Below are positions 3,627 to 44,463 of a stretch of DNA of 51,165 bases, one piece after another. Both the position numbers and the translations under genes were made by a program. Under the pieces are notes generated by a model. It searched no databases. It was not told the DNA's origin and saw only the letters and a list, made by a program, of their open reading frames with translations. How positions within the stretch are numbered: the stretch's first letter is position 1; each line of letters begins with the position of its first letter. Source of the stretch: Chitinophagaceae bacterium (GTDB lineage: Bacteria > Bacteroidota > Bacteroidia > Chitinophagales > Chitinophagaceae); contig CANGBH010000013.1 in NCBI GenBank assembly GCA_947451935.1, forward strand, positions 1-51,165, given 5' to 3'.

Positions 3627-6563
3627 TTACTTCAATAAGCCATCAACTAAAATAGACACATAATATAATGCCCCAATTGTTGGACCACCTGCATATTGAA
3701 TCTTTCTATTGTTCAAGATATTTGTTCCACCAAATTTCACTGTTGATTTTACCTCCGGCAGTTTTAAAGAAATTTGCGCATCAATATTATTGATTGCTGC
3801 AACTTGTCCTGTAACCAACGGACTTTCCCATAAGAAACTATCTTGCCAATGCCACACTACATTAAAGCCGACATTTTTTGTAATAGCTCTATTCGCGAAT
3901 GAAATATTACTCGCAAATTTCGGAGTATTGAAACCGGTTACAAATAAATCTGGTGTGGTATTACCTTTGATAGCATTATAATTGATATTACCAGAAACAG
4001 TAAATGACTTATAAAAATTATACGTTAAGCCAAGCGATGATCCATAAGTGGCATATCTATTTTTCGCGTTAGTATAAACACGGTAACGATCTTGCCCTTT
4101 GCTCGCAGCATTACCACCACTGGCAACTGTTGCATCTCTATTTCTATCAATCATTGCAATGACGGCTGCATCAGATCCTACAACCTCACCTTTTGGTACA
4201 TATACTTGAACTTGTCCTAAGAAACCACCAAATAAATTATGATACAAATCAAAATCAATCACTAATTTATTATTCAATAAAACACTTTTGTATCCCAATT
4301 CAAAAGACCCAACCCCTTCAGGTCTTCCATCAGGCAATTTAGATTGTCTTAATAGTCCTCTATTAACTAGTGCTGCCGAGTCAGTGTTGCCACCCGCTTT
4401 TACTGCAGCATTAAATGCGGCTACAGAAGATTGAGAATAACTATTGTCCCTAAACCCTAATCCTTCATTGATAACAGACAAAATACCAACACGTCGAACA
4501 CGTCCATTATTAACATAACTCAAGGCTTCAAATAAAGCTGGGAATCGATGACCTTGTTGGAAAGTAAAACGGATGTTATGTACTTTTTGAATGGTGTACA
4601 CTGCAGCTAATCTTGGCGTCAAGACCGGTTTAAATTCAGGGTTATAGTCAGCACGTAAAGAACCCGTGAGTTTCAATCGTTCATCAAACAACAGTTTAGT
4701 AGCTTGTGCAAATCCACCAATCTTTTTATAATAGGTGTTCTTCCCAAATTTACCGTTGTCCAAAGGTTTATTCCTATCATCTATAGGCCTGGAAAAATCA
4801 ACAAAATTATTGCCATCAGGGATTAATTCATACACACGAGCATCTCCACCCAATAAAAGATTGAAATACTTTACTTGCTCAGTTAAATCCAACTGTCCTT
4901 CAATATGATATAGGTTACTCTTTTGAATCAACGCTGCACCACCAGTTACAGGAGCATTTGGAATGCTACTGGATTTAGCATCCCAGTTATTTATTTTAAT
5001 GATAGAATCTCTTACAATATTAAATCGTTCAGTGCCTGGTTCTACTCTTCCAGCATCTGCGCTTTGCCTTGCTACTATATTTGCCGCTGCAAGATTATCG
5101 GATGTTAGACCCCCATTGTTGTTAGCATAGTCAACCAATGCATTTTTATATTTTTTACTCCAAGCCGAACTTCCACCACCTGTATATAAATCTAAATTAT
5201 CTGCTAGTGGTTTAACGTTATATGAATCACCAGAATTTTCTAAAGAAGTATACGCCTTAATCGTATAATTCTTACCCTTCAATTCCAATTGATGATTCTG
5301 AACTACTACATTATCAAGCTTTACTTTATTTCCTCGCTGAAAAACTCCATCCATCTGACCTATACGATAAGTATAATTAATCTGAGTGGTACTATTGAGT
5401 TTATAAAATAATGCAGCATCAAATTTTAAATTATTAACCTTTGGATCGACCAAGTCTTTTTCCCAATAACCAGTTCGTGCAACATTGAGTGTTCTATTTG
5501 GAACATTATCAATGGTTAATCCAGTAACTGAAACAGTATTACTTGATGCCAATGCATCATCACCATACTTATTCCATCCATCAAATGCAGCATTATTTGA
5601 TCCGGACAATGATGGATAAGATGGATTAGCTGTATTTTTTGAATTTGGATTTTGATCAATTCTGCTATCTGAAATCCAATCAGTAGCTTGTAAATAACTC
5701 GCATTTAATTTAAAGGCAAATCGATCTTTGATTACTTTGGCATAACGGATAGCCGTCTCAAATAATATAGAAGGTGCATGATCAATGCCATCAACATGAT
5801 TAACCCCAGTACGTTGAAACACACTCAAGCCTTGAGATGTAAATGGATTTTTTGTAATCAGATTGGCCATGCCATTAATAGCGTTTAAACCATAGAGTGC
5901 TGAGGCAACACCAGGTGTAATTTCAATACTTTGAATATCCAATTCTGTCGGACCAATGGCATTACCAAGTGGAACACCTAATGTAGCCGCTTGCATGTCA
6001 ATACCATCAACCAATTGCATAAACCTAAAATTATTAGGTATGTTGAACCCTCTTGTATTAGGGACTTTAAATGTAATCGATGAAGTTGTTAGTTGAACTC
6101 CCTTCACATTAGCAAGTGCATCATAAAACGATGCGGCAGGCGTCTCCCTCAAACTTCTAATATCTAATTTTTCTATAGCAACAGGAGATTTCAAAATACT
6201 CTCCGCCATACGAGATGCTGTTACTACTATATCCGCACCCAAGTACTCTTGAGTGACGAGTTCAATTTGAAGTTTAGAATCTAGACTTTTTACTTCAAAC
6301 TCTTGTGCCTTGAAGCCCATAGATGAAAAGACTAGCGTAAAGGGAAGTTTACTTTTTGTTCTAAGCTTAAATGCGCCTGTAGAATTTGTTACCGTTCCTG
6401 TAACTGAACCCTTGATTTGAACGGTTACATCAGTTAAGGGCAATTTCTTTTCACCATCGGTAACTCTTCCTGAAATTTCAATCAGCACATTCTCTTGCGA
6501 GCTCACAGAATTAATAAAAAAGAGGTGCAAGAGTAAAAAATAAACTAAGTGTTTCTTTATCAT
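3627..6563 (-). CDS. TonB-dependent outer-membrane receptor (sulfur-locus associated)
   Basis: A 978-residue outer-membrane transporter powered by TonB-ExbBD. Order: signal peptide 1-22 ending 'NSVSSQ'; carboxypeptidase-D-like beta-sandwich at about 29-112 ('ISGRVTDGEKKLPLTDVTVQIKG'); plug domain at about 115-235 ('ADIVVTASRM', 'GVASALYGLNAINGMANLITKNP'); then a 22-strand barrel to the C terminus. It is not a SusC: no SusD partner follows and the plug is of the classical receptor type. It is the last gene of the sulfate-reduction locus and its promoter carries the same 15-bp palindrome as cysH and the siroheme/permease gene. I infer import of a sulfur-bearing ligand or of something needed for sulfur metabolism such as an iron complex. 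The ligand is unknown. Confidence 0.93.
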   Translation of the reverse strand: MIKKHLVYFLLLHLFFINSVSSQENVLIEISGRVTDGEKKLPLTDVTVQIKGSVTGTVTNSTGAFKLRTKSKLPFTLVFSSMGFKAQEFEVKSLDSKLQIELVTQEYLGADIVVTASRMAESILKSPVAIEKLDIRSLRETPAASFYDALANVKGVQLTTSSITFKVPNTRGFNIPNNFRFMQLVDGIDMQAATLGVPLGNAIGPTELDIQSIEITPGVASALYGLNAINGMANLITKNPFTSQGLSVFQRTGVNHVDGIDHAPSILFETAIRYAKVIKDRFAFKLNASYLQATDWISDSRIDQNPNSKNTANPSYPSLSGSNNAAFDGWNKYGDDALASSNTVSVTGLTIDNVPNRTLNVARTGYWEKDLVDPKVNNLKFDAALFYKLNSTTQINYTYRIGQMDGVFQRGNKVKLDNVVVQNHQLELKGKNYTIKAYTSLENSGDSYNVKPLADNLDLYTGGGSSAWSKKYKNALVDYANNNGGLTSDNLAAANIVARQSADAGRVEPGTERFNIVRDSIIKINNWDAKSSSIPNAPVTGGAALIQKSNLYHIEGQLDLTEQVKYFNLLLGGDARVYELIPDGNNFVDFSRPIDDRNKPLDNGKFGKNTYYKKIGGFAQATKLLFDERLKLTGSLRADYNPEFKPVLTPRLAAVYTIQKVHNIRFTFQQGHRFPALFEALSYVNNGRVRRVGILSVINEGLGFRDNSYSQSSVAAFNAAVKAGGNTDSAALVNRGLLRQSKLPDGRPEGVGSFELGYKSVLLNNKLVIDFDLYHNLFGGFLGQVQVYVPKGEVVGSDAAVIAMIDRNRDATVASGGNAASKGQDRYRVYTNAKNRYATYGSSLGLTYNFYKSFTVSGNINYNAIKGNTTPDLFVTGFNTPKFASNISFANRAITKNVGFNVVWHWQDSFLWESPLVTGQVAAINNIDAQISLKLPEVKSTVKFGGTNILNNRKIQYAGGPTIGALYYVSILVDGLLK

Positions 6564-6620
6564 AAAATAAAAATATTGACGTTGAATTTTTAAAGGGATT
6601 TTTTTATTTTTTAAATTAGT

Positions 6621-6635
6621 CTACAAATTTAGTAG
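6621..6635. promoter_or_regulatory. CTAC-N7-GTAG operator overlapping the -7 element of the TonB receptor
   Basis: The 15-mer CTACAAATTTAGTAG is a near-perfect palindrome. On the minus strand it contains TAAATTTG (complement of 6624-6631), an exact fit to the Bacteroidota -7 consensus TAnnTTTG, about 60 bases upstream of the receptor ATG. The surrounding 25 bases (6615-6639) match the site at 8251-8275 (read on the other strand) at 23 of 25 positions. A protein bound here would block the promoter. Confidence 0.7.
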
Positions 6636-6751
6636 AGTAAATTTCCAAAAAAATAGCAACTTATCTATACATAAGCCTATAAGTTAAAGGCAGCTTCATT
6701 TCGCGCATACTACAACAGGTTAATTGTTTCATACTTGTTTTTTTATAGTGA

Positions 6752-8233
6752 TTAAAATATTTTGATTAGTATTCGAATACTCCACCACATTACCAATAAG
6801 CCTAATAAAATAAATGATGCTTTTCTAGGTAACCTCCCCGCTAATTTTGCTGCAATAGGCGCAGCGATTACACCACCAATGATAAGTCCTATGATGGTTT
6901 GCCAATGACTTACACCTAAAACTGCAAAAAAAGTAAATGCACTTGCTAAGGTCACAAAGAACTCAGTTAAACTGACTGTACCGATAACGTATTTTGGTGT
7001 TCCTCCTTTAGTGATCAAGGTAGTTGTCACAATTGGTCCCCATCCACCTCCACCAAAGGAATCCAAAAATCCACCTGCACCTGCAAGTAATCCATACCGA
7101 TTAAATTTAGAACGAACTTTCAGTTTTTTAAATGCATTAATAAATATTCTTATCCCTAAGATTAATGTATAGCACGCAAGTACCGGACGAATATAATTAG
7201 AATGCTTATCACCAAGATAGTACAAGAGAAGAGCACCAAATATGGCTCCTAATACTCCAGGAATTACAAGTATTTTAAATAATTTCTTATTGACATTACC
7301 GAATTTATAATGACTATACCCACTTGCTCCACTTGCAAACATCTCAGCCGTATGAATGCTACCACTGATCGCAACGGGGGGAATGCCTGCCGACAATAAA
7401 ACAGTTGCACTGGTTACGCCATAACCCATACCTAACGCACCATCAACTAATTGTGCAACGAAACCCGCCAACAGCATGATACCAAAATTAGGGTCCAATG
7501 AATGATATACATCCATACTTGATTGTCCCATTTCTTTAAATGGTACATATGAGAAAATAAAATGGCCAATCAACATTAAAGCAAAAACCAAAGCAGAATA
7601 AGAAGCCACTTTTCTCCAACGCTTCTCACTTACACTATTTTCATTTTCAACCAAAACACTGGTAATGCTATTGAGTCTTTTAACTTTATCTTCAAAACTG
7701 CCCTTTAATCCGTTGCGAATCTGCTGAAGATTTTGCAACACATCATCCAACTCATCTGGTAATGTATGATTAAGCATCTCTTTTATGCGTTTAGCCGCAG
7801 TAGGGGATTTCCCATTCGTGGAGATAGCGATTTTTAAATTCCCCTTTTTCACTACAGAACTTAAATAGAAATCACATAAATCAGGCTTATCAGCGGCATT
7901 GACCAAAATACCTTTTGCTCTAGCATCTTGAACAACTTGAGCACTTACATCACCTTCATTAATTGCTGCAATAACCAAATCGATGTCAACAAGATCAGCT
8001 GAATTATAGGATTTTTCAAATAACCGAACATTCGGGTAGTCTATAACCAACTCTTTTATTTCAGTACTAATTTCACGTCCAACAATATGTATATGAGTTT
8101 CTGGTGAGTTATTTAGTACCGCTTGCAATTTTTCCATGCCAACATAACCGCCGCCTACAATAAGTAAACGCATGTTTTCCAATTTTAAAAAAATAGGAAA
8201 AAGATGATTTGTTTCGTTGATAACAGTCGACAT
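6752..8233 (-). CDS. Precorrin-2 dehydrogenase/sirohydrochlorin ferrochelatase fused to TauE/TSUP permease
   Basis: A 493-residue fusion. Residues 1-200 match the CysG N-terminal/Met8 family, which oxidises precorrin-2 with NAD and inserts iron to give siroheme: start 'LFPIFLKLEN', dinucleotide motif 'LLIVGGGYVGMEK' (about 23-35), and Asp115 in 'VNAAD' at the position of the catalytic Asp of CysG. Residues about 215-493 form a TauE/SafE (TSUP, DUF81) membrane domain with roughly eight hydrophobic segments, including 'QLVDGALGMGYG' and 'GGFLDSFGGGGWGP'. TSUP proteins move sulfite, sulfoacetate or related anions. The locus has no other sulfate permease, so the domain may import sulfate or release excess sulfite; direction is inference. 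It has its own promoter and operator and probably a leaderless start. Confidence 0.9.
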   Translation of the reverse strand: MSTVINETNHLFPIFLKLENMRLLIVGGGYVGMEKLQAVLNNSPETHIHIVGREISTEIKELVIDYPNVRLFEKSYNSADLVDIDLVIAAINEGDVSAQVVQDARAKGILVNAADKPDLCDFYLSSVVKKGNLKIAISTNGKSPTAAKRIKEMLNHTLPDELDDVLQNLQQIRNGLKGSFEDKVKRLNSITSVLVENENSVSEKRWRKVASYSALVFALMLIGHFIFSYVPFKEMGQSSMDVYHSLDPNFGIMLLAGFVAQLVDGALGMGYGVTSATVLLSAGIPPVAISGSIHTAEMFASGASGYSHYKFGNVNKKLFKILVIPGVLGAIFGALLLYYLGDKHSNYIRPVLACYTLILGIRIFINAFKKLKVRSKFNRYGLLAGAGGFLDSFGGGGWGPIVTTTLITKGGTPKYVIGTVSLTEFFVTLASAFTFFAVLGVSHWQTIIGLIIGGVIAAPIAAKLAGRLPRKASFILLGLLVMWWSIRILIKIF

Positions 8234-8238
8234 GGGTG

Positions 8239-8246
8239 CAAATATA
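8239..8246 (-). promoter_or_regulatory. -7 promoter element TATATTTG of the siroheme/permease gene
   Basis: Read on the minus strand the sequence is TATATTTG, an exact match to TAnnTTTG. Only five bases separate it from the ATG at 8231-8233, so transcription should start at or within a base or two of the start codon (leaderless mRNA). Confidence 0.6.
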
Positions 8247-8254
8247 TGAATACT

Positions 8255-8269
8255 CTACTAAATTAGAAG
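8255..8269. promoter_or_regulatory. CTAC-N7-GTAG-type operator upstream of the siroheme/permease gene
   Basis: The 15-mer CTACTAAATTAGAAG is a palindrome with one mismatch. It lies 8 bp upstream of the -7 element, in the spacer/-33 region, and its right flank runs into the hemB stop codon (8271-8273). Together with flanks it is almost identical to the site at 6615-6639. Confidence 0.65.
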
Positions 8270-8270
8270 A

Positions 8271-9269
8271 CTAATAACTAAGTTTTTTTTCGATCCACTC
8301 TTTTGCATTTCTAGATGCATAAGAAATAATCATGTTTGCACCACTCCGAACCAATGCAGTCCATACTTCTAAATGAGCTGCCTCCCTATTCATGTATCCT
8401 TGTTGAACCATAGACTCTATAGCTGCATACTCCCCACTTACATGATAAGCAGCCAAAGGCTTACTTGAATACTGTTTTAATGACGCAATGACATCAGTAT
8501 ATAACCCTGCTGGCTTCACCATGAGGATATCAGCACCTTCCAATTCATCTCGAAGACTACTTGAAATAGCATCCTCCACATTAAAAGGGGAGATTTGATA
8601 GGTCTTGCGATCTTTTATGCCTTGGGTATTCGGGGCAGAGTTGCAGGCATCCCTGAATGGTCCATACCATTGTGAGCTAAACTTAGCTGAATAACTCATG
8701 ATGCTTACATGATCAAGATGTATTTCATTGAGCCTTGACCTTATTGCCCCTATTCGCCCATCCATCATATCACTAGGAGCAATACAATCAACTCCTGCCA
8801 ATGCTAATTGTTCAGCATAATTAACCAAAACCTCTACAGACGCATCATTTAGCAATCTTGTATGATCTGAATTTAAAATACCACAATGGCCGTGGGTTGT
8901 ATAACTGCATAAACACAAGTCTGACGCCAGCCATATAGCTTCCCCAAATTCACTTTTGATGGCACTCACTACACGGGAAGCAAATGAAAAATCAAAATCA
9001 ACATCCACTTTATTTTCTGGAACTGGAAAAAGCAAAAACTTAGTAACTCCGTGTTCAATATCATGTTTAATTGACCTCAAAACAGAATCAATGGTCTCAG
9101 CATATATACCCTCTAATCCAGTTAATGGAGTTCGCACTTTATTTGTTTCATTCACAAACAATGGTTGGATAAAACTTTTGTGCGACAAATGAACAGAAGC
9201 AGTCAATTCACGTATTTGACTACTTGCTCTTAGTCTTCTCTGGGTTGCAGGATATTTTAAGCTAGACAT
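8271..9269 (-). CDS. hemB: Delta-aminolevulinic acid dehydratase (porphobilinogen synthase)
   Basis: A 332-residue cytosolic enzyme that condenses two 5-aminolevulinate molecules into porphobilinogen. Both active-site lysines are visible: the first in 'SYSAKFSSQWYGPFRDA' and the Schiff-base lysine in 'MVKPAGLYTD'. The segment 'DLCLCSYTTHGHCG' carries three cysteines, so this is the zinc-dependent type. 'DMMDGRIGAIR' and 'VSGEYA' are further family marks. The ATG overlaps the end of the upstream HemC-HemD gene by 13 bases, which suggests translational coupling. Its place between hemC-hemD and the siroheme-completing enzyme indicates that it feeds siroheme synthesis for sulfite reductase. A separate hemB for heme may exist elsewhere; that cannot be seen here. 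Confidence 0.97.
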   Translation of the reverse strand: MSSLKYPATQRRLRASSQIRELTASVHLSHKSFIQPLFVNETNKVRTPLTGLEGIYAETIDSVLRSIKHDIEHGVTKFLLFPVPENKVDVDFDFSFASRVVSAIKSEFGEAIWLASDLCLCSYTTHGHCGILNSDHTRLLNDASVEVLVNYAEQLALAGVDCIAPSDMMDGRIGAIRSRLNEIHLDHVSIMSYSAKFSSQWYGPFRDACNSAPNTQGIKDRKTYQISPFNVEDAISSSLRDELEGADILMVKPAGLYTDVIASLKQYSSKPLAAYHVSGEYAAIESMVQQGYMNREAAHLEVWTALVRSGANMIISYASRNAKEWIEKKLSY

Positions 9270-10759
9270 TGTAAAAATGATTTAATGTTAGGATAAACAA
9301 CTGGTGTAACACCTGCCTCTTGCAATAAATTCGCTGTTTCACCAGAAGAACAATAATGCATAGCCCCTTCTGCTAATAAAGATTTATAAAAATCGTATTG
9401 ATGAAAGCTTGTCCAAAAAAAGGCTTTAGCTAGCTTAATTTTTTCTTCCAATAAGCTATTTGACTTTATAGTAAAATTATAGGTAGAAACAACATTCCAG
9501 CCTTTTTTCTCCCAATTAGAAGATGCCTGATCTCCGGTAACCACACATACATTTTCTCTCGACACATTTAATAAAGGCATCTTCCAAGCATTTTCAAGAA
9601 AAACTAATCCAAATGCATCGGCAGAACCCATAACCCAAATTTTTTGCTTTGCTAATTCATACCAAGTCTTTGTGCCAGAAGCCCATACTTTTTTTGATTG
9701 TAGGAGATTGATTAAATATTCTTGTTTAATTGCTTTATAATTTGATACATACACATGAGGCTGTTGAATTTCAATCGTACTATCATGATATGTATAGCTA
9801 AAAAATTCTCCCATATACTCTGTAGTATTGAAGAAATATTCTTTCTGAAAATGTACCTCAGGTATACCAGTCCACACTGAAAACAATTCACCGCCCTCAT
9901 TTTCTCCCGCAGAATACAAGACCTTGCTTGCTTCACTATACTGAATAGTTGTAACGCCGAACTTTTGCAAACATCCGGTACCGTACGTAGAGGCTTGTCT
10001 CTTTTCAGCAATACAATCATTCATCTCATTTTCATCATTAATAGCTGCTAGAATATTAACTGCCAATATATTTGAATGATGGGCTTCTGCTACAATCGCA
10101 CCTTGACAAGGAGCCGGAACGCATTCAACCAATGGCAAGACCATCATTTTTTTATCCCCCAGCAATTGCTGAATGTATTCCTTATCGGTAGGACTTTCTA
10201 GAAGACGATTAATCCCCGCTGTCGCCAATATGATACCATCATACTCTCCTGAATCCAATTTCACAAGTCTTGTATCAACATTGCCACGGATACTTTTGGT
10301 TTCAATTTTAATATTATCACTCCATTGTGGTAATGCCCTTTTCAAAAAGACCATTGCCATTTGCTCCCTTCGTGGTGAACAAGTACCTATGACTATCGGT
10401 AATCCTGATCGAAGTTTATCTTCGATGTGTTGATTAAAAATAGCAACATCTCTTGTGTCATCACGTTCAACAACAGCAAATTTATTTCCTCCAAAAAAAT
10501 GACCAGCACTCATATCTTTCAATGAATGCACCGCTATGTCTGCCCCTCCACTTTCAAGAAGGTCAAATATATCTTGCGTAAAAAAATCACTGCCTTCCAC
10601 AGTATGCAATGGAACATTTTGCAATAAATCACCACGGCTATCCTTAGGGTAAAGTTCAACCTTCACATCAGGAAAAGCCCGCTCAATCTTATGCTTCGTT
10701 TTCAACATCTGCAACAGAGAGAGCCGAGAAGATCTCCCTGTTATGCGTATCGTCGCCAT
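9257..10759 (-). CDS. hemC: Hydroxymethylbilane synthase fused to uroporphyrinogen-III synthase-like domain (HemC-HemD)
   Basis: A 500-residue fusion. Residues 1-310 are HemC, which links four porphobilinogens: 'IRITGRSSRLSLLQ' at the start, 'AVHSLKDMSA' (about 76-85), 'SIRGNVDTRL' (156-165), and Cys263 in 'YGTGCLQKFG' as the attachment site for the dipyrromethane cofactor. The usual 'PA.GQGA' motif reads 'PAPCQGA' here. Residues about 340-500 are shaped like HemD, which closes and inverts ring D: a late Ser/Gly pair in 'CSSGETANLLQEAGV' and a final 'PVVYPNIKSFLQCL'. HemD is weakly conserved in general, so this half is less certain, but no other hemD is in the locus. The start overlaps the 5-aminolevulinate synthase gene by 71 bases; the next Met is past the conserved N terminus, so the overlap is real. 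Confidence 0.92.
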   Translation of the reverse strand: MATIRITGRSSRLSLLQMLKTKHKIERAFPDVKVELYPKDSRGDLLQNVPLHTVEGSDFFTQDIFDLLESGGADIAVHSLKDMSAGHFFGGNKFAVVERDDTRDVAIFNQHIEDKLRSGLPIVIGTCSPRREQMAMVFLKRALPQWSDNIKIETKSIRGNVDTRLVKLDSGEYDGIILATAGINRLLESPTDKEYIQQLLGDKKMMVLPLVECVPAPCQGAIVAEAHHSNILAVNILAAINDENEMNDCIAEKRQASTYGTGCLQKFGVTTIQYSEASKVLYSAGENEGGELFSVWTGIPEVHFQKEYFFNTTEYMGEFFSYTYHDSTIEIQQPHVYVSNYKAIKQEYLINLLQSKKVWASGTKTWYELAKQKIWVMGSADAFGLVFLENAWKMPLLNVSRENVCVVTGDQASSNWEKKGWNVVSTYNFTIKSNSLLEEKIKLAKAFFWTSFHQYDFYKSLLAEGAMHYCSSGETANLLQEAGVTPVVYPNIKSFLQCLA

Positions 10760-11945
10760 AGATTAATTTTTTTAAACTAAAAACCAAATGGTTAATATGC
10801 TTTGGCTCATGCCTACTTGTTACAATAATTCTTAAACATTCATTACCAATGGGAACAGTAGGAAAGTTGATTGGCTGCAAATACACGCCTTGAATTTTTA
10901 ATAAATCATCAGCCAGTTGTTTACACTGAGTAGCATTACCAATATGTATTCGGGTAATATGAGAATCATTCACTGAAAAAGGAAGCGCATTTTCTTCCAT
11001 CCTTTTTCTCAATAACAATACATTTTCGTGGAATTTTTTTCTGAGCGAATCATCACGTTGAATCAGTTGGATACTTTTTGTGGCAGCTGCACATACTGCT
11101 GGAGGCAATGATGTAGTAAAAATAAATCCAGTCCCAAAGCTTCTAATAAAGTCAATCAATATATTCGATGCAGCTATATACCCCCCAAATACACCTATTG
11201 CTTTAGATAGTGTACCATTAACTATATCAATTTCTTGCTCTAGATGTTCTTGCTCTACAATACCAGCTCCAGAATTACCATATAATCCTACTGCATGTAC
11301 TTCATCAACATACGTAAGTGCATTATATTTTTTTGCAAGAGCTACTATCTTCTTTATAGGGGCAATTGTACCCATCATTGAATAAACCGATTCAAAGACA
11401 ATAATTTTAGGTTGATCTATATTGATGCCTTGTAGAATTTCTTCTAGATGAATAAGATCATTGTGCTTGAATATTCTTTTTTCATTTCCAGAAGACTTAA
11501 TGCCTTCGATGATGGAAGCATGATTACATTCATCAGAAATAAAAACAAGATTATCAATATGCTTACCTAATGTTTTTAGTGTTGTCGTATTAGCCTGATA
11601 AGCGCCATTAAATAATAAGGCAGCTTCTTTCTTATGCCAATTAGATAAGGTATTTTCCAACTCCCTGTGATAAATGGTTGTACCAGAAATATTTCGGGTA
11701 CCGCTACTTCCTGTTCCACTACGATGTGATACAAAACTTAACTTAGCAATCACATCCTCATGGGTACTCATGCATAGATAATCATTGCTACACCAGTTAA
11801 TAGCTGAACGCTTTACCCCTTCCTCATTGGTATAATAAAAATTTGGAAAGTGTTGTGCACTCTTATTGACCTCTAAAAAATGACGATAAGAACCTTGTTC
11901 CTTAAGAGCATCCAATTTATGAGTAAACAATCCATTGTAATTCAT
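10689..11945 (-). CDS. hemA: 5-aminolevulinate synthase (C4 pathway)
   Basis: A 418-residue pyridoxal-phosphate enzyme that condenses glycine with succinyl-CoA to 5-aminolevulinate. It belongs to the alpha-oxoamine synthase family, and motifs single out ALAS rather than KBL or BioF: 'INWCSNDYLCMS', 'GTGSSGTRNISGTTIYHREL', 'SDECNHASIIEGI', 'VYSMMGTIAPI', 'VDEVHAVGLYG', the PLP lysine in 'NGTLSKAIGVFGGYIA', 'SFGTGFIFTTSLPP' and 'LQPINFPTVP'. Most Bacteroidota make ALA from glutamyl-tRNA, so a C4 enzyme here is unusual and may have been acquired. The last 23 residues overlap the hemC-hemD start in another frame. The gene follows cysI by 25 bases in the same orientation, tying ALA production to siroheme need. 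Confidence 0.95.
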   Translation of the reverse strand: MNYNGLFTHKLDALKEQGSYRHFLEVNKSAQHFPNFYYTNEEGVKRSAINWCSNDYLCMSTHEDVIAKLSFVSHRSGTGSSGTRNISGTTIYHRELENTLSNWHKKEAALLFNGAYQANTTTLKTLGKHIDNLVFISDECNHASIIEGIKSSGNEKRIFKHNDLIHLEEILQGINIDQPKIIVFESVYSMMGTIAPIKKIVALAKKYNALTYVDEVHAVGLYGNSGAGIVEQEHLEQEIDIVNGTLSKAIGVFGGYIAASNILIDFIRSFGTGFIFTTSLPPAVCAAATKSIQLIQRDDSLRKKFHENVLLLRKRMEENALPFSVNDSHITRIHIGNATQCKQLADDLLKIQGVYLQPINFPTVPIGNECLRIIVTSRHEPKHINHLVFSLKKLIYGDDTHNREIFSALSVADVENEA

Positions 11946-11970
11946 AATAATATTTTAAGCCTTAATGTGA

Positions 11971-13641
11971 TTATTCACCAAGGATATATTTTCGCTTAGT
12001 GAAATCTCCAAATCGCTCATCTTGATTTCTCTCATTTTTAAAAGAGTTAAATAACTGATCAAGTTCTGTAAGCAACTCATCCTCCCCTAAATTTTCTTTG
12101 TATGTTTTATTCAATCGATACCCTTCGTAATCACCACCCAATTGCAAATTGTATTTATTTGGTGCGGTACCAATGAATCCAATTTCAGAAATAGCTGAAC
12201 GACCACAACCATTCGGACAGCCGGTCATTCGTGTAATAATATCTTGTTGAGCTAACTCATGCTTGACTAATAATGGTTCAATTTTATCAATCAAACTGGG
12301 TAAATACCGCTGTGCTTCAGCTAAGGCTAAAGGACAAGTAGGTAATGCCACACAAGCCATAGAATTTTTACGTATACCTGAAGCACTGTCTGTGTGTGCT
12401 ATGATATCATACTTCTCTAAAATAGTTTGAACAGCTTCTTTGTCCTCAGCCTTTACATCTGTCAATATCAAATTTTGATTACCTGTAAACCTAAAATTCC
12501 CCTTACCAAGATTAGCTAATTCGAGTAAAGCGGTTTTTAATGCAACTTTTTCATCATCAAGAACACGCCCATTTTCAACAAAAATGGTATAATGCCATAA
12601 ACCTCTGTCGCACTCTTCCCAACCATAATAATCTTTACGCTCAGTAAATAAATAAGGCTTTGCCTCTTCTAATGAAAATCCAATCCGTTTATTCAGCTCC
12701 GTTTTGAAAGCCTCAACACCCATGTTATCTATGGTGTATTTTAACCTGGCTAATTTCCGATCGGCACGATTTCCAAAATCCCGTTGTATGGTTACAACTT
12801 CATATACTATTTTAAATAAATCGTCCTTGGTAGAAGCAAATCCTATCAGTGTAGCCGCTCTTGCATATGTTGCGGTATTACCATGGGTTGCTGACAAACC
12901 TCCACCTACAGCTATATTGAACCCTTGTAGTTTACCGTCTTGAATTATTGCAATCAATCCGATATCGTTGGCAAAAATATCAACATCATTATTCGGAGGA
13001 ATAGCAATTGCAATTTTGAACTTACGCGGCAAATATCGATCTTGATATAATGGGTCTTCTTCACTATGTTCTATCAACTTTTCTTCATCGAGCCATATAT
13101 CATAATAGCTTCTTGTTTTAGGCAACAACAACTTACTTATCTCATCAGCATAAGCATATATCTCTTCATGCAGTGAGGATTGTTTAGGATTGGGGGAACA
13201 TAATACATTTCTATTTACATCGCCACATGCAGCAATAGAATCCAATTTCAACGTATCAAATGCCTGAATGGTTGGCTTAATATGACTCTTAACTATTCCA
13301 TGAAGTTGAACAGTTTGTCGCGTAGTAATTTTAATTACCCCTGTAGAATGCTCTCCAGCTAAATGATGCAAACCAATCCATTGTTCAGGTGTGAGAAAAC
13401 CACCGGGCAAGCGAAGGCGTATCATGAAAGAATATAACCACTCTAATTTTTTTTCACTGCGCGCTTCCCTTTTATCCCTATCGTCTTGCTGGTATAAACC
13501 ATGAAATTTAATAAGCGATTGATCATCGTCTCTCAACGAACCTGTTACAGCATCGTTTAGGCTTTCTTTTAATGTACCGCGCAATCCATCACTAGACGTT
13601 TTTATACGCTCAACTGGTGATAACTTTTTTTCATTACTCAT
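11971..13641 (-). CDS. cysI: Sulfite reductase hemoprotein subunit
   Basis: A 556-residue cytosolic subunit that reduces sulfite to sulfide with six electrons at a siroheme coupled to a 4Fe-4S cluster. The two-repeat nitrite/sulfite reductase layout is clear, with 'GVIKITTRQTVQLHGI' in the first half and 'GNFRFTGNQNLILTDV' in the second. Cluster and siroheme ligands are Cys430 and Cys436 ('ACVALPTCPLA') and Cys475 and Cys479 ('TGCPNGCGR'). Length and the adjacent flavoprotein gene fit the NADPH-dependent CysJI type. It starts 62 bases after cysJ and is followed at once by siroheme-synthesis genes. Confidence 0.97.
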   Translation of the reverse strand: MSNEKKLSPVERIKTSSDGLRGTLKESLNDAVTGSLRDDDQSLIKFHGLYQQDDRDKREARSEKKLEWLYSFMIRLRLPGGFLTPEQWIGLHHLAGEHSTGVIKITTRQTVQLHGIVKSHIKPTIQAFDTLKLDSIAACGDVNRNVLCSPNPKQSSLHEEIYAYADEISKLLLPKTRSYYDIWLDEEKLIEHSEEDPLYQDRYLPRKFKIAIAIPPNNDVDIFANDIGLIAIIQDGKLQGFNIAVGGGLSATHGNTATYARAATLIGFASTKDDLFKIVYEVVTIQRDFGNRADRKLARLKYTIDNMGVEAFKTELNKRIGFSLEEAKPYLFTERKDYYGWEECDRGLWHYTIFVENGRVLDDEKVALKTALLELANLGKGNFRFTGNQNLILTDVKAEDKEAVQTILEKYDIIAHTDSASGIRKNSMACVALPTCPLALAEAQRYLPSLIDKIEPLLVKHELAQQDIITRMTGCPNGCGRSAISEIGFIGTAPNKYNLQLGGDYEGYRLNKTYKENLGEDELLTELDQLFNSFKNERNQDERFGDFTKRKYILGE

Positions 13642-13703
13642 AAATAAAATTTGACCCTAGCTTGATAATTAAAAATGCTAAACTCAGACAGAACAGAATG
13701 AAC

Positions 13704-15413
13704 TTAATACACTTCCTTTTGATATCGTCCTTCATTTTTCATGGTATCCCAATATGATTTAGCTTCTTCAGAAGACATCTGCCCATATTTTTCAAAAACA
13801 TGAAGTATCGAATTTTCTACATCGAAACTCATCGGATCTTTCGTGCCACTTAAATAAATACTCGCTCCACTTTTTACCCAATTGAAAAACTCTTCTCCTT
13901 CTTCCATCATTCGATCTTGTACATACACTTTTTTGGGTTGATCTCGGGAGAATGCAAGACTAACTTTCTGCAAAACATCAGTTTGCAGATAATTTTGAAT
14001 TTCTGTTTGATACAAGAAATCTTTTTGAAAATAATGCTCTCCAAAGAACAACCAATTTTTACCGGACGCACCAACCGCATCACGCTCAGCTAAGAACGAA
14101 CGAAATGGTGCAATACCAGTACCCGGACCAATCATGATTAAATCTTTATCATGATTAGGAAGTTTGAAATGCTTATTCTTATGTATATAAAAATTAATTG
14201 TTGATTCTACAGGAGTTAACCCTAATAGCTGACTACAATGCCCATATCCTTTAGAACCATCAGAAATATATTCATCCCGGCGTACAATAATATGTACTTC
14301 GGTATCATGAATTTTTGGTGATGATGAGATGGTATAAAGCCTTGGTGCTATTGGTGTTAAAACACCAATCACCTCTATGAATTGTGCATTATCCTTCACA
14401 GGATATGTATTAAGCAAATGGAGAAGATCAGTTCTAATATCTTGAATGTCTTCACCAATAAGTGAGGCGTACTTCTTAATCGTTGAATTTAATAGATAAC
14501 TAATATTCAAATGATTTAGCAAAAGTTCCTTAACAGTTCCGCTGTGCTTTGCAGTAGTAATGAGTGTCTCTGAATCAATACCCACTTTTTTTAATATTGA
14601 ATCCACAATTGATTCATCATTAGAGGGAATCATAGCTAAAGCATCTCCAGCTTCATACTCAATCACTTCATCACTCGTTATTTCAATATGATAGGTCTCC
14701 TTAAGTGACCCACTATCATTTAAATTAATATTTGTAACGACTTCTCCTTTATAATATTTTTTTCCAACTTTTTTTGCAACTGATTGCTTAGCAACTTCGC
14801 TTTCAGCTTGAGCTAAATTAATTTTTGAAGATGTACTATAACCAAGTATCTGCTGAAACCAATCTTTTGCATCTTCTTCGTAATCAACATCACATTTCTT
14901 TAATGAGAACAACCTTGTTGCTCCAAGTAAATTCAATTGATTATCTATGTCCTCTCCTGTTTTACAAAAAAGGGGATACGACGAATCTCCTAAAGCCAAA
15001 ATACCATAATTGATATGGCTCAGAGACAATGAATTATCATGAATATAGTCATAGAATTTTTTGGCCGTTTCGGGAGGCTCCCCTTCACCATGTGTGCTTA
15101 CAACAATAAATAAATACTCTTCCTTAGATAAATCACTAAGACGATATTGATCCAGTCCACCATGTTTTACCATCACACCTTGCTTTTTTGCAGCACTGGC
15201 AAACTGTATGGCTAAATTTTTTGAATTACCTGTCTCTGTCCCAAAAAGGATTGTCATTTTTTTAATACCACTTGATGCGATTGCAGCGCTTGTCAACTTG
15301 GGTGACTTAGCTGATAAGATATTATTTAGATAGCCATTTATCCATATCAACTCATCTTGAGTAGACGAATCTATTATTTCTTGTAACTGTTTAAATCGAG
15401 TCTCCTGAAGCAT
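13704..15413 (-). CDS. cysJ: Sulfite reductase flavoprotein subunit
   Basis: A 569-residue diflavin reductase that passes electrons from NADPH through FAD and FMN to CysI. Order: N-terminal helix region 1-50; flavodoxin-like FMN domain about 52-195 ('ILFGTETGNSKNLA', 'VVSTHGEGEPPETA', 'LGDSSYPLFCKTG'); FAD domain about 215-430 ('RLYTISSSP', 'GYGHCSQLL'); NADPH domain to the end ('MIGPGTGIAPFRSFLAER'), closing 'EGRYQKEVY' with the C-terminal aromatic residue that stacks on the FAD ring. All parts of CysJ are present. It lies between cobA (14-16 bases upstream end) and cysI. Confidence 0.97.
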   Translation of the reverse strand: MLQETRFKQLQEIIDSSTQDELIWINGYLNNILSAKSPKLTSAAIASSGIKKMTILFGTETGNSKNLAIQFASAAKKQGVMVKHGGLDQYRLSDLSKEEYLFIVVSTHGEGEPPETAKKFYDYIHDNSLSLSHINYGILALGDSSYPLFCKTGEDIDNQLNLLGATRLFSLKKCDVDYEEDAKDWFQQILGYSTSSKINLAQAESEVAKQSVAKKVGKKYYKGEVVTNINLNDSGSLKETYHIEITSDEVIEYEAGDALAMIPSNDESIVDSILKKVGIDSETLITTAKHSGTVKELLLNHLNISYLLNSTIKKYASLIGEDIQDIRTDLLHLLNTYPVKDNAQFIEVIGVLTPIAPRLYTISSSPKIHDTEVHIIVRRDEYISDGSKGYGHCSQLLGLTPVESTINFYIHKNKHFKLPNHDKDLIMIGPGTGIAPFRSFLAERDAVGASGKNWLFFGEHYFQKDFLYQTEIQNYLQTDVLQKVSLAFSRDQPKKVYVQDRMMEEGEEFFNWVKSGASIYLSGTKDPMSFDVENSILHVFEKYGQMSSEEAKSYWDTMKNEGRYQKEVY

Positions 15414-15429
15414 AATAACTGTTTACCGT

Positions 15430-16215
15430 TTATTTTACCAATTCCCTAAACACACTGCCTTTTTCAACATCAACATTTAACCAATTGAAGCGCTGATGAA
15501 GTTCAACTACATCGCCAATAATTACTAAAGATGGTGAACTGAACTGTTTGTCTCTAAAATCATGCTCACACTGCTGCAATGTTGTTGTATGTATTTTCTG
15601 ATGAGCAGTTGTTGCTTGCTCAATCAATGCCATAGGGGTATTAGGCTTTTTGGTATAGCGCAATAAGATTTCTGCTAAGCCACATATATTTTTTACCGCC
15701 ATATAAAATACGAGGGTATCATTACTTGTAGCAAGTTGCTTCCAGCCTTCTTGTGTATAATTGATGTTTGGATTGTAGGTTAAAAATCTTACTCCTTGTG
15801 CATACCCTCGTCCTGTTAAGGGTATACCAGAATAGGCCGAGGCACCTGAAGCGGCAGTTATCCCGGGAATAATTTCAAATTCAATCTCATGTTGTTCAAT
15901 AGCAACTAACTCATCCAATACATTGCTAAAAAATGCCACATCCCCACCTTTCAATCGAAGTACATTCTTCCCGTCTAATGCATTCTTAATCATCAATTCA
16001 TTTATCTCTTCCTGGGTATATGATGCATCATTGTATCCCTGCTTTCCGGAAAGAATAATTTCAGCAGTTGGATTTGCAAATTGACTAATAATATCAGGAT
16101 TCACTAAACGATCTGTGAGAATAACATCTGCAGACGCTAATCTTCGTTGAAGTTTAAGTGTGATCAACTCAACGTCTCCAGGTCCAGCTCCAGCCAAAAT
16201 TATTTTCCCTTTCAT
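15430..16215 (-). CDS. cobA: Uroporphyrinogen-III C-methyltransferase (SUMT)
   Basis: A 261-residue enzyme that methylates uroporphyrinogen III at C2 and C7 with S-adenosylmethionine, giving precorrin-2, the branch point from heme to siroheme. Family signatures: 'GKIILAGAGPGDVELITLK' at the N terminus, 'ADVILTDRLV', 'VLRLKGGDVAFF', and 'PGITAASGASAYSGIPLTGRG'. I chose the ATG at 16213-16215; a TTG two codons upstream is in frame but less likely. It stands alone rather than fused to a CysG N-terminal domain; that activity is supplied by the permease fusion at the far end of the locus. Gap of about 35 bases to cysN. Confidence 0.96.
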   Translation of the reverse strand: MKGKIILAGAGPGDVELITLKLQRRLASADVILTDRLVNPDIISQFANPTAEIILSGKQGYNDASYTQEEINELMIKNALDGKNVLRLKGGDVAFFSNVLDELVAIEQHEIEFEIIPGITAASGASAYSGIPLTGRGYAQGVRFLTYNPNINYTQEGWKQLATSNDTLVFYMAVKNICGLAEILLRYTKKPNTPMALIEQATTAHQKIHTTTLQQCEHDFRDKQFSSPSLVIIGDVVELHQRFNWLNVDVEKGSVFRELVK

Positions 16216-16250
16216 CCTCAATATATTTTATAAAATTTCCTATACTATTA

Positions 16251-17492
16251 CTAAATGAATAAAACAGCTGCCACAGTACTATTACTCGTTTCATCAATTA
16301 AAATAGCACTTCCATTTGCTCTCAATTTTTCATATGAATCAAATACCAATTGAGAAGAAGTCTTGATCTTAGCTTTAACCACTTCATTCAATTTCACTTG
16401 TCCCTCAACTGATTGATGCTCCAACGTGTTTACATCAATTCGATACGCTATCTCTTTAACAATAGCTCGTTGTAATTGACTATTATGTTGGATATAATAT
16501 TTATTGCCAGACTGTAATGGTTTATCATCCATCCAACATAACAATACGTCAAGTTCGTTACGTGTAGTAGGAAGGTTATTAGTATTCACGATTGAATCAC
16601 CTCTACTAATATCAATATCATCAGCAAGAAGTATGGTGGCACTTTGTGGAGCAAAAATTTCAGAAACTTCTTCTCCTGCAATTTCCAATTTTGAAATACG
16701 CGTTTCAATGCCCGCTGGTAAAATAGTTACTGCATCTCCTTTCCTATAAACACCACTTATAACCTTACCCGCATAACCTCGATAATCATGCAAATCTTCT
16801 GTTTGAGGACGAATTACAAATTGAACCTGAAATCTAGGATCAGTTAAATTGATATCCTCATCAATGCTAACTTCTTCTAGTAAATGAAGCAATGGCTTGC
16901 CTGTATACCAATCCATTTTAGTACTGGCATCAACTATATTATCCCCCTGCAATGCACTGATGGGAACATAGGTTATATCGTTCAATCCGAGTTGTTCAGC
17001 AACAGATGCATAATCAGCAACAATCTTTGTATATACCTCTTCTGAAAAATCAACTAAATCCATTTTATTTATAGCCACTACTACATGTGGAATTTTCAAA
17101 AGAGAAGCTATAATAGAATGCCTTCTCGTTTGTTCTACTACACCCTGACGCGCATCAACCAATACAATAATCAAACTAGCATTTGATGCACCAGTAATCA
17201 TATTTCTAGTGTACTGAACATGCCCAGGGGCATCAGCAATGATGAACTTTCTCTTCGGAGTAGAAAAATACCTGTAGGCAACATCAATGGTAATTCCCTG
17301 CTCTCTCTCTGCACGTAAACCATCTGTAAGCAATGCAAGATCAATTGGACCAGCCTCTTTATTCTTAGTCTGCTTTTCCAATTGCTCAAGTTGATCAATT
17401 AAAATATTTTTACTATCGTAGAGCAAACGCCCAATCAATGTGCTTTTGCCATCATCAACACTACCTGCTGTAATAAATCTTAAAATATCCAT
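16251..17492 (-). CDS. cysN: Sulfate adenylyltransferase subunit 1 (GTPase)
   Basis: A 413-residue elongation-factor-like GTPase that works with CysD: GTP hydrolysis drives formation of adenylyl sulfate (APS) from sulfate and ATP. Motifs: P-loop 'GSVDDGKSTLIGRLLYDSK' (about 10-28), G3 'DAPGHVQYTRNM', G4 'NKMDLV', and the EF-Tu-like beta-barrel domains afterward. 'GLRAEREQGITIDVAYRYF' is the switch I region. The length shows there is no C-terminal APS kinase (CysC) domain, and no cysC is near, consistent with direct reduction of APS by the CysH encoded upstream. 54 bases separate it from cysD. Confidence 0.97.
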   Translation of the reverse strand: MDILRFITAGSVDDGKSTLIGRLLYDSKNILIDQLEQLEKQTKNKEAGPIDLALLTDGLRAEREQGITIDVAYRYFSTPKRKFIIADAPGHVQYTRNMITGASNASLIIVLVDARQGVVEQTRRHSIIASLLKIPHVVVAINKMDLVDFSEEVYTKIVADYASVAEQLGLNDITYVPISALQGDNIVDASTKMDWYTGKPLLHLLEEVSIDEDINLTDPRFQVQFVIRPQTEDLHDYRGYAGKVISGVYRKGDAVTILPAGIETRISKLEIAGEEVSEIFAPQSATILLADDIDISRGDSIVNTNNLPTTRNELDVLLCWMDDKPLQSGNKYYIQHNSQLQRAIVKEIAYRIDVNTLEHQSVEGQVKLNEVVKAKIKTSSQLVFDSYEKLRANGSAILIDETSNSTVAAVLFI

Positions 17493-17546
17493 TCTTTTTT
17501 TCTTTACACGCTTAAAAATTAAGCATTTGTATTACTACGTTGCTAA

Positions 17547-18455
17547 CTAGAAATATCCGTTCTTCTTTCTATCTTCCATGGCAGCTTCAGTAACCCTATC
17601 ATCAATTCTTGTTTCTCCACGTTCACTTATTTTAGCTGCTGTAATTTCACTTATCACTTCATCTAATGTTAATGCATTAGATTCCACCGCTGCAGTACAC
17701 GTCATATCACCTACTGTTCTATAGCGTATGCGCTTTGTTACAATTACATCTGTTGATTCCCTCAACACAAAATCAGACAGGGCAACTAACTGACCTTCAT
17801 GTACAATCAATTCACGTTCATGTGAAAAATAGATAGAAGGAAGAGCTATATTTTCATGCTTGATATAATTCCAGATATCTAATTCAGTCCAGTTGCTAAT
17901 TGGGAATACGCGAACATTCTCCCCTTTATTAATTCTTCCATTATATGTATTCCATAATTCAGGACGCTGAAGCTTTGGATTCCACTGACCAAAATCATCC
18001 CTAACAGAAAAAATACGTTCTTTTGCTCTTGCCTTCTCTTCATCCCTTCGCGCTCCACCAATACACGCATCAAATTTAAATTCCTCAATCGTATCCAATA
18101 AAGTGTATGTCTGTAGCCAATTTCTACTTGGAAATTTTCCTTTGGCCTCCGTTAAACTTTTAGCCTTAATCGTATCCTCTACTTTTCGGACGATAAGATC
18201 TGCATGAATACTAGCCGCCATTGCATCTCTGTAATCAAGGGCTTCTTGAAAATTATGACCCGTATCGATATGCACTAAGGGAAAAGGAATTTTACCAGGA
18301 GCAAATGCCTTTCTAGCAAGATGCACCAACGTAATAGAATCCTTACCGCCACTGAATAATAGCGCAGGTCTTTCAAACTGTGCTGCAATCTCACGAAAGA
18401 TATGTATGCTTTCCGCTTCTAATTGCTCCAAATAATTTAAATGATGGTTGCTCAT
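17547..18455 (-). CDS. cysD: Sulfate adenylyltransferase subunit 2
   Basis: A 302-residue catalytic subunit of ATP sulfurylase; it joins sulfate to AMP from ATP with help from the GTPase CysN. The PP-loop pyrophosphatase motif is 'LLFSGGKDSITLVHLA' near residues 32-47. 'VHIDTGHNFQEALDYRD', 'CIGGARRDEEKARAKERIFS' and 'VFPISNWTELDIWNYI' are characteristic of CysD. The C terminus 'MEDRKKNGYF' is the typical ending. It starts only three bases after the cysH stop, so the two are translationally coupled. Confidence 0.98.
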   Translation of the reverse strand: MSNHHLNYLEQLEAESIHIFREIAAQFERPALLFSGGKDSITLVHLARKAFAPGKIPFPLVHIDTGHNFQEALDYRDAMAASIHADLIVRKVEDTIKAKSLTEAKGKFPSRNWLQTYTLLDTIEEFKFDACIGGARRDEEKARAKERIFSVRDDFGQWNPKLQRPELWNTYNGRINKGENVRVFPISNWTELDIWNYIKHENIALPSIYFSHERELIVHEGQLVALSDFVLRESTDVIVTKRIRYRTVGDMTCTAAVESNALTLDEVISEITAAKISERGETRIDDRVTEAAMEDRKKNGYF

Positions 18456-18458
18456 AGA

Positions 18459-19223
18459 CTATGATTTATCTATTGGAGAATTACTAATAATTGAATCACT
18501 TGGTGTATGGGGATCATGTACATGCAAACCACATTCCTTTTTATCACTCTCTTCCCACCACCAACGACCGGCCCTAAAATCCTCACCAGGACGAATAGCT
18601 CTTGTACAAGGCAAACAACCAATACTTACAAATCCTTTGTCGTGAAGCGGATTATATGGGATGTCATGAAGTTTAATGTATTTCGTAACCTCTTCAGTAG
18701 TCCAATGCAATAATGGATGATACTTAATGATGTCATTCACTGCGTCATATTCTACCAAAGGCATATCACTTCTGCCATTAGAATGCGCTGCTCGAATCCC
18801 AGTGATCCAAATAGATCTACCCTTCAACGCACGCTGCAATGGCTCAATTTTACGAATGGCGCAACAACGTTTTCTATTCTCAACAGACTCATAAAAAGAA
18901 TTTGGACCCTTTTCAGTCACGAAATCCTCTAAAGAATCAGCAGAAGGATAATAAGCCTGGATTTTCTTTTGATATAATCCAACCGTATTATTCCACGTAC
19001 TGTATGTTTCAGAAAACAATCGTCCTGTATCCAATGTGAATACATCTACGTTGATGCCATGCTTGAAAATGATATCACTAATCAATTGATCCTCCCAACT
19101 AAAACTCGTTGAAAAGACAACCTCCCCTGAATATGTATCAACTAAATTGCTTATACTTTTGGCAATGTCTTCAGGATGAATAAGTTGAGAGACTTTATTT
19201 ATATACGTTGACCTATTATCCAC
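18459..19223 (-). CDS. cysH: Adenylyl-sulfate (APS) reductase, CysH family
   Basis: A 254-residue reductase that turns activated sulfate into sulfite using thioredoxin. Cys120-Cys121 ('RKRCCAIRKIEPL') and Cys203/Cys206 ('IGCLPCTRAI') are the 4Fe-4S ligands that mark the APS-using branch rather than the PAPS-using enterobacterial one. Catalytic Cys231 is in 'KECGLH'. The start is GTG at 19221-19223: an in-frame stop lies about 40 bases further up with no ATG between, and the next Met is far inside the conserved region. It is the first gene of the operon, behind a -7 element (19351-19358) and operator (19335-19349), with a leader of about 120 bases. Confidence 0.96.
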   Translation of the reverse strand: MDNRSTYINKVSQLIHPEDIAKSISNLVDTYSGEVVFSTSFSWEDQLISDIIFKHGINVDVFTLDTGRLFSETYSTWNNTVGLYQKKIQAYYPSADSLEDFVTEKGPNSFYESVENRKRCCAIRKIEPLQRALKGRSIWITGIRAAHSNGRSDMPLVEYDAVNDIIKYHPLLHWTTEEVTKYIKLHDIPYNPLHDKGFVSIGCLPCTRAIRPGEDFRAGRWWWEESDKKECGLHVHDPHTPSDSIISNSPIDKS

Positions 19224-19273
19224 ACTATAAAAATTAAAATAGAAAAATAAATCGCAGAAATCTACCTATTCCA

Positions 19274-19318
19274 CTGTAATAATCAACACAATTATTTATG
19301 TAAACAATTGATTTACAG
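19274..19318 (-). other. Imperfect hairpin in the cysH 5' leader
   Basis: CTGTAATAATCAA (19274-19286) can pair with TTGATTTACAG (19308-19318) with a two-base bulge, giving an AU-rich stem in the untranslated leader of cysH. It does not resemble a known sulfur-related riboswitch that I recognise. It may be chance in AT-rich DNA. Confidence 0.3.
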
Positions 19319-19334
19319 CAATAAAAATAGAACT

Positions 19335-19349
19335 CTACCATTTTGGTAG
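19335..19349. promoter_or_regulatory. CTAC-N7-GTAG operator at the cysH promoter
   Basis: CTACCATTTTGGTAG, a perfect palindrome around its central base apart from the A/T core. It lies one base downstream of the cysH -7 element, so it should cover the transcription start. It has the same arms as the sites at 6621-6635 and 8255-8269, and on one strand all three share GTAGAGT at the right edge. Confidence 0.75.
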
Positions 19350-19350
19350 G

Positions 19351-19358
19351 CAAAAGTA
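19351..19358 (-). promoter_or_regulatory. -7 promoter element TACTTTTG of the cysH operon
   Basis: On the minus strand the bases read TACTTTTG, an exact match to the Bacteroidota TAnnTTTG element. A clear -33 TTTG is not present; TTTT occurs at about the right distance. Predicted start of transcription is near 19343, inside the operator. Confidence 0.6.
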
Positions 19359-39612: not shown

Positions 39613-39627
39613 CAATATGTATTTAGA

Positions 39628-39635: not shown

Positions 39636-39690
39636 CTTAAATATAATAGTATACAATATTAGTAGACTAAATAATTTATTTCAATAGGAC

Positions 39691-44443: not shown

Positions 44444-44463
44444 TCGATTATGATTAAAAATAT

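Follow-up and report, generated by a model that had tools for sequence, protein, structure and literature searches.

The window analysed here is the whole 51,165-nt stretch of DNA from a Chitinophagaceae bacterium (assembly GCA_947451935.1, contig CANGBH010000013.1, positions 1-51,165), and it carries an array of sulfate-reduction genes with repeated palindromic sites in front of several units. The original prediction had described 15-bp palindromes before three units of this sulfur locus: the TonB-dependent receptor gene, the fusion gene of a precorrin-2 dehydrogenase and a TauE/SafE permease (cysG-TSUP), and cysH. All three were found, at 6621-6635 (CTACAAATTTAGTAG), 8255-8269 (CTACTAAATTAGAAG) and 19335-19349 (CTACCATTTTGGTAG). 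We suggest that these sites are operators of one homodimeric repressor of sulfur genes, the Rrf2-family protein encoded on another contig (C45) of the same genome. The binding, the repression and the sulfur signal are predicted from sequence comparison, and the probability of this reading is estimated at about 0.78.

The flanks of the sites were compared by eye; the TonB and cysG-TSUP sites indeed agree at 23 of 25 bases, and the edge GTAGAGT is common to all three. Within one mismatch of the 15-bp pattern CTACYAAWTTRGTAG, the window contains solely these three places. They are parts of a 23-bp palindrome, TAGTCTACTAAWTTAGTAGACTA, whose consensus was derived from 148 non-coding sites of the cysD loci of relatives. 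A refined 23-bp matrix, built from 123 sites of those loci, revealed five sites in the window with scores of 21.7-28.7 bits (Table 1); the sixth-best place has 7.3 bits. Among 100 copies of the window made with a first-order Markov model, there was a single score of at least 20 bits in total. Two of the five sites had been overlooked, namely the second cysH site and the one before a DUF1684 gene. The latter gene is about 20 kb away from cysH and is predicted to be a further member of the regulon. Its homologue in another genus of the family (locus L119, 48.6% identity) has a 25.8-bit site 39 bp upstream.

Table 1. Predicted operators and genes of the window, and further sites in the same genome. 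Scores are from the refined 23-bp matrix for the window operators.
Feature	Position	Strand	Details
TonB-receptor unit operator	6617..6639	.	28.7 bits, centre 6628; promoter element TAAATTTG at 6624-6631 (- strand) within the palindrome
cysG-TSUP gene operator	8251..8273	.	22.3 bits, centre 8262; TATATTTG at 8239-8246 (- strand); covers the -33 side of the promoter and overlaps the hemB stop codon
cysH operator 1	19331..19353	.	24.5 bits, centre 19342; immediately downstream of TACTTTTG at 19351-19358 (- strand)
cysH operator 2	19365..19387	.	21.7 bits, centre 19376; 34 bp from the centre of operator 1
DUF1684 gene operator	39647..39669	.	21.9 bits, centre 39658; over the -33 side of the promoter, TATCTTTG at 39628-39635
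metY operator	contig C7		24 bp upstream of the metY start
Carbonic anhydrase site	contig C3		23 bp upstream of the gene
DUF2490 gene site	contig C171		136 bp upstream of the gene
tRNA-Cys-like gene site	G000 C8:31257-31279 (L211:1501-1523)		24.3 bits; 24 bp before the gene at L211:1536-1607 (+)
TonB-dependent receptor	3627..6563	-	CarbopepD_reg_2 and Plug domains; relatives have sites before it
Precorrin-2 dehydrogenase (CysG N-terminal part) fused to TauE/SafE permease	6752..8233	-	
hemB, porphobilinogen synthase	8271..9269	-	
hemC, hydroxymethylbilane synthase	9257..10759	-	C-terminal part without a Pfam match at E 0.001
5-aminolevulinate synthase (ALAS)	10689..11945	-	TIGR01821 503.6 bits (cut-off 338.55)
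cysI, sulfite reductase hemoprotein	11971..13641	-	
cysJ-like sulfite reductase flavoprotein	13704..15413	-	521.4 bits, under the cysJ equivalog cut-off of 668.15
cobA/cysG C-terminal part, uroporphyrinogen-III C-methyltransferase	15430..16221	-	
cysN, sulfate adenylyltransferase large subunit	16251..17492	-	
cysD, sulfate adenylyltransferase small subunit	17547..18455	-	
cysH, adenylylsulfate/phosphoadenylylsulfate (APS/PAPS) reductase	18459..19223	-	
DUF1684 protein	38716..39630	-	predicted regulon member

The 15-bp pattern matched ten places in the window at up to three mismatches, versus 5.2 (standard deviation 2.25) in shuffles, which is weak evidence alone. In the whole own genome, it was not enriched over the reversed pattern (4 versus 5 places at up to one mismatch; 27 versus 50 at up to two), and the bare CTAC-N7-GTAG frame was also uninformative (37 places versus 62 for the control). 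One of the four places at up to one mismatch, on contig C75, was rejected, as it lies within a coding sequence with an OmpA domain. Support for an operator must therefore come from the longer site and from the relatives. The 23-bp pattern occurred at eight places of the own genome (2.56 Mb) at up to two mismatches, versus two for the control. At up to three mismatches there was no real difference (27 versus 23), and weaker genomic sites are thus indistinguishable from chance in this way.

The relatives were searched with a four-site 23-bp matrix, made from the three noted sites and the metY site of contig C7. It was applied to 80 cysD loci found by protein similarity, which by title are mostly from Chitinophagaceae-type and Chryseobacterium-type bacteria. 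At a threshold of at least 12 bits, 134 of 125,611 non-coding positions were matched versus 27 of 1,229,863 coding positions; some of the coding matches sit in wrong starts, because genes in these loci were called by a simple longest open reading frame (ORF) rule. When two loci with nearly identical cysD (L037 and L038) were set aside, the remaining 78 loci contained 132 non-coding sites; 200 matrices whose columns had been permuted symmetrically gave a mean of 2.4 and a maximum of 25. Non-coding sites of 11 bits or more are present in 67 of the 80 loci. Moreover, the cysH upstream region reached at least 10 bits in 52 of 73 usable cases, versus 1.4% of 1,460 shuffled regions. The recurrence in relatives that the original prediction had called for was found, with sites before cysH, cysG-TSUP and metY and near Rrf2 genes.

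The genes behind the sites in the 80 cysD loci include cysH (51), tonB (29), cysD (13), cobA (9), cysG-TSUP (7), ALAS (5) and metY (2). In 88 pattern-selected loci of other genomes, 55 genes are located within 300 bp of sites of at least 16 bits. Among them are genes for peroxiredoxin, Rrf2, cysD, cysN, ALAS, TSUP, TonB receptors and DUF1684, sulfite/nitrite reductase homologues (about 25% identity to cysI), an amino-acid kinase with an ACT domain, S-adenosylmethionine synthetase, and DUF2061 genes; the rest have no assigned sulfur link.

The eight places in the own genome are divided between the window (four) and contigs C7, C3, C171 and C8 (one each, Table 1). The C8 site was considered as an operator of ppk1 and was rejected, because a tRNA-Cys-like gene is located on the other strand, 24 bp from the site centre. 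This gene has the anticodon aca according to ARAGORN, scored 38.9 bits with the Rfam tRNA model (cut-off 29), and contains two non-standard acceptor pairs. As seen by eye, its loop CAACAAA is without the usual U33, and a terminator-like hairpin is located downstream. Standard tRNA-Cys (gca) genes also lie in sulfur loci of relatives (L042:16201-16272, L055:16761-16832 and L241:1702-1773); two of them are located between the TonB receptor and DUF2490 genes, and the third is 190 bp behind a 25.7-bit site. Across all loci examined for tRNAs, tRNA-Cys makes up 4 of 13 distinct tRNAs.

The -7 promoter consensus of Bacteroidota is TAnnTTTG. Within 80 bp of the 104 sites with one downstream gene, this element was found 66 times on the gene strand versus 4 times on the opposite strand. 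Three registers from the operator centre account for 48 of the 66 starts: -17/-16 (13), -4/-3 (9), and +24 to +27 (26). The promoter placements proposed originally were right, since the first base of the element precedes the operator centre by 3 bases at the TonB gene and by 16 at cysH, and follows it by 16 at cysG-TSUP. The registers of the own sites are -3 (TonB and metY), -16 and +18 (the cysH pair), +16 (cysG-TSUP) and +23 (DUF1684), with -21 (carbonic anhydrase) and +27 (DUF2490) outside the window; several are a few bases away from the register peaks. The -7 element of cysH is flanked by its two operators, whose centres are 34 bp apart. Operators on or after the -7 element fit repression; an operator that covers the -33 side might in principle serve activation as well. 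The earlier idea of steric repression is supported by the promoter registers.

The regulator gene had been expected outside the window, and a probable candidate was found there. Only one Rrf2 gene of the genome is over the Pfam cut-off, at C45:6220-6672 (given as 6238-6639 in the Pfam search). Its product scores above the cut-offs of the hidden Markov models of the Rrf2 family (PF02082, 120.4 bits, cut-off 30; TIGR00738, 120.8 bits, cut-off 73.3). The wing glycines of the family (GxxGG; G59, G62 and G63) are present in 100% of 112 Rrf2 sequences; a Gx2GGx2L motif is named in the available part of PMC9973013. Four cysteines in the C-terminal half (C91, C100, C103 and C108) are also invariant in these sequences, spaced as C-x8-C-x2-C-x4-C in 76 of 112 and with x5 in the last gap in 36. 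These cysteines suggest that the protein may sense sulfur via an iron-sulfur (Fe-S) cluster. The curated equivalog cut-offs were missed for CymR (NF047409, 65.1 bits versus 195), IscR (TIGR02010, 89.1 versus 207.55), NsrR (NF008240, 51.6 versus 182) and RirA (NF008886, 56.7 versus 193). The original finding is real and its interpretation mostly correct: it points to a Bacteroidota sulfur regulon whose repressor is probably an Rrf2 protein of another type than CymR.

Rrf2 orthologues are located near cysH in 26 of the 80 cysD loci. The typical orders are OsmC-Rrf2-[site]-peroxiredoxin-cysH-cysD, Rrf2-[site]-cysH, or a divergent arrangement with sites between the genes (L075, L077 and L102). Sites of at least 11 bits lie beside 54 of 111 distinct Rrf2 genes, with 8 upstream (within 300 bp), 47 downstream (within 250 bp) and one on both sides. 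In loci outside the matrix training, a site of at least 12 bits was found beside Rrf2 in 26 of 87, versus 0.27% in shuffles; these comprise 17 of 28 phylum-wide loci, 9 of 30 family loci, and 0 of 29 in genomes picked for an Rrf2 outside the cysD locus. The pattern and the gene also co-occur. Among 198 genomes of the phylum, a close Rrf2 (E up to 5.5e-30) was present in 38, and these had 216 hits versus 114 for the control; the 160 genomes without it had 132 versus 188. Among 60 genomes of the family, the corresponding numbers were 186 versus 64 (42 genomes with Rrf2) and 32 versus 26 (18 without). The genomes are related, and therefore the computed p-values overstate this evidence. In L040:7650-9165 and similar loci, Rrf2 is preceded by an OsmC gene and followed, after an operator, by a gene for a 1-Cys-type peroxiredoxin. 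These neighbours tie thiol-peroxide defence to sulfur assimilation.

Several observations weigh against the C45 protein as the regulator. Its gene adjoins dapB and is unlinked to the sulfur locus in the own genome, and the first 12,000 of the 14,475 bases of contig C45 contain no site above 9 bits. No adjacent site was found for 57 of the 111 Rrf2 genes. The cysH site is kept in three of the five cysD-locus genomes that have no close Rrf2 and a usable promoter (L050, L057 and L078), and no association between Rrf2 presence and the cysH site was detected in the cysD loci (Fisher p 0.64; a small group). In the 30 family genomes with an examined 23-bp-pattern locus, the best site reached at least 20 bits in 19 of 23 with Rrf2 versus 3 of 7 without (p 0.06); the best site of one of the latter, G042, is inside an ORF call. 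The other two of these three genomes, G037 (99% completeness) and G023 (95%; its genes are those of L050), carry their sites within genuine sulfur loci, and it is possible that the gene is missing from the draft assembly or that a second protein reads the site. The G037 locus (L317, G037:C2:1-18000) has five sites of at least 14 bits, and the Rrf2 search of this genome found nothing. Among the 160 genomes of the phylum that lack Rrf2, there are five in which the hits outnumber the control by at least three (G135, G116, G169, G162 and G231). All places in G135 and G116 have two mismatches and are AT-rich, G169 has one strong place within a coding ORF, and one examined locus of G162 scored 10.7 bits. 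At the promoters, the -3 register follows in part from the palindrome itself, whose centre can spell TAAATTTG. The missing linkage in the own genome and the good sites of G037 and G023 might suggest that the operator is bound by a different, unlinked dimeric regulator (e.g. a LysR-, TetR- or Crp-type protein), and that Rrf2 is merely a member of the neighbourhood. Against this stand the group-level co-occurrence in both genome surveys, which covered Rrf2 as the sole regulator, the sites between Rrf2 and divergent cysH, and those beside Rrf2 in the phylum-wide loci. The operator geometry also resembles that of RisR and NsrR, as far as the available parts of the sources describe it, and no other regulator was conspicuous by eye among the ORFs of the 18-kb stretches from G037 and G023. 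We consider an unlinked regulator unlikely. The proposal of one Rrf2-type repressor is thus supported by synteny and group co-occurrence, but is strained by the genomes that keep good sites without a close Rrf2.

It is also conceivable that Rrf2 is the regulator but responds to peroxide/thiol stress or to iron/Fe-S status, with the sulfur genes following as a part of redox or Fe-S homeostasis; this overlaps the proposal above except for the signal. The OsmC and peroxiredoxin genes flanking Rrf2, the site before peroxiredoxin, the four invariant cysteines, and the TonB receptor, ALAS and siroheme genes behind sites would all suit such a signal; whereas sulfate-reduction, TonB and permease genes are the most frequent targets. 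A redox or iron signal is judged somewhat unlikely, and it would not exclude a sulfur signal, as an Fe-S cluster could report both. The palindrome might instead act as an RNA hairpin in the leader (attenuator, terminator or processing site), given that perfect copies could fold and several sites are 12-30 bp before start codons. However, the mirrored positions of 139 distinct sites showed no excess of paired changes. The number of Watson-Crick-matched pairs was within 5 of the independence expectation at 10 of the 11 positions; at the remaining one it was lower than expected (66 versus 77.3). Two of the 11 positions had p<0.05; one of them had three deviating sites, and at the other paired changes were rarer than expected. 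Many sites would also not be transcribed, given their location on the -7 element or upstream of it. The RNA hairpin was rejected on the mirrored-position test and is highly improbable; the lack of base-pair covariation points to a DNA operator that is read as two half-sites by a dimer. Chance, meaning AT-rich palindromes selected by eye, would be in line with the 15-bp pattern alone showing no genome-wide enrichment, but it is excluded by the conservation in loci outside the matrix training and by the score gap in the window, and its probability is practically negligible.

In the proposed mechanism, the Rrf2 winged-helix homodimer from C45 would bind the 23-bp palindrome with its YCTAY-N7-RTAGR core. 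Depending on the promoter, the bound repressor would cover the -7 element, the bases directly behind it, or the -33 side, and RNA polymerase would be blocked. The repressed genes might include those for sulfate reduction, siroheme and 5-aminolevulinate (ALA), the permease, the TonB receptor, homocysteine synthase and a few accessory functions. At a shortage of sulfur (cysteine or sulfide), the repressor would leave the operator and the genes would be turned on; the sulfur status is perhaps read through an Fe-S cluster on the four invariant cysteines. A bolder extension, which we regard as doubtful, is a class-wide Bacteroidota sulfur regulon under a four-cysteine Fe-S Rrf2 repressor, in which the cluster occupancy reports cysteine-derived sulfur and the sensing principle of IscR has been moved onto sulfate assimilation. 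Such a regulon might also reach the tRNA-Cys-like RNA gene, whose altered anticodon loop hints at a role outside decoding, perhaps in regulation. The operator, the likely regulator gene and the target list are now testable in culturable Chryseobacterium, Niastella or Terrimonas. Moreover, siroheme/ALA supply, the TonB receptor, and the DUF1684, DUF2490 and DUF2061 families would be tied to sulfur nutrition.

The gene content of the window has some further features. CysG is split, with the methyltransferase as its own gene (15430-16221) and the dehydrogenase fused to the TauE/SafE permease (6752-8233). ALAS (C4 route), hemC and hemB are located inside the sulfate-reduction array (8271-11945), and glutamyl-tRNA reductase (PF05201) was not found in the own genome (95.9% complete). 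In two relatives' loci (L050 and L052), operator sites are directly upstream of the ALAS gene. Two very large FG-GAP/ASPIC-UnbV repeat proteins are encoded at 19558-23064 and 41072-44482, the second followed by a SusD-family gene.

The open-licence literature, as judged by titles and the beginnings of abstracts, yielded no description of a regulator for sulfate assimilation in Bacteroidota. The closest known systems are members of the Rrf2 family. CymR of Bacillus and Staphylococcus is likewise an Rrf2-family repressor of cysteine metabolism, and its chains were matched in a sequence search with the C45 protein. According to the available part of PMC9338935, BsCymR acts with O-acetyl-thiol-lyase when cysteine is present and binds no Fe-S cluster; whereas the Rrf2 clade described here has four invariant cysteines. 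The analogy with CymR that was drawn originally has to be narrowed in view of the missed equivalog cut-off and these cysteines. IscR, NsrR and RirA share the family and the cysteine region with the C45 protein, which is under all three curated cut-offs and would have other target genes; the 23-bp consensus of the ScNsrR operator contains a central region of 7 bp (PMC9338935, available part). For RisR of Myxococcus xanthus, the accessible text of PMC9973013 states that cysteines 92, 102 and 108 probably hold a cluster, that the holo-protein represses, and that the operator is GAC-N7-GTC. RisR resembles the present system in its conserved cysteines and N7 palindrome (TAC-N7-GTA here); however, it regulates the isc and suf operons, its half-site is GAC instead of CTAC, and three cysteines are named instead of four. 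Compared with both sources, as far as they were accessible, the operator described here fits an Rrf2-type frame, being AT-rich, about 23 bp long and an N7 palindrome. This N7 frame, common with the RisR and ScNsrR operators, suggests that an Fe-S Rrf2 protein might repress the sulfur genes while sulfur is plentiful.

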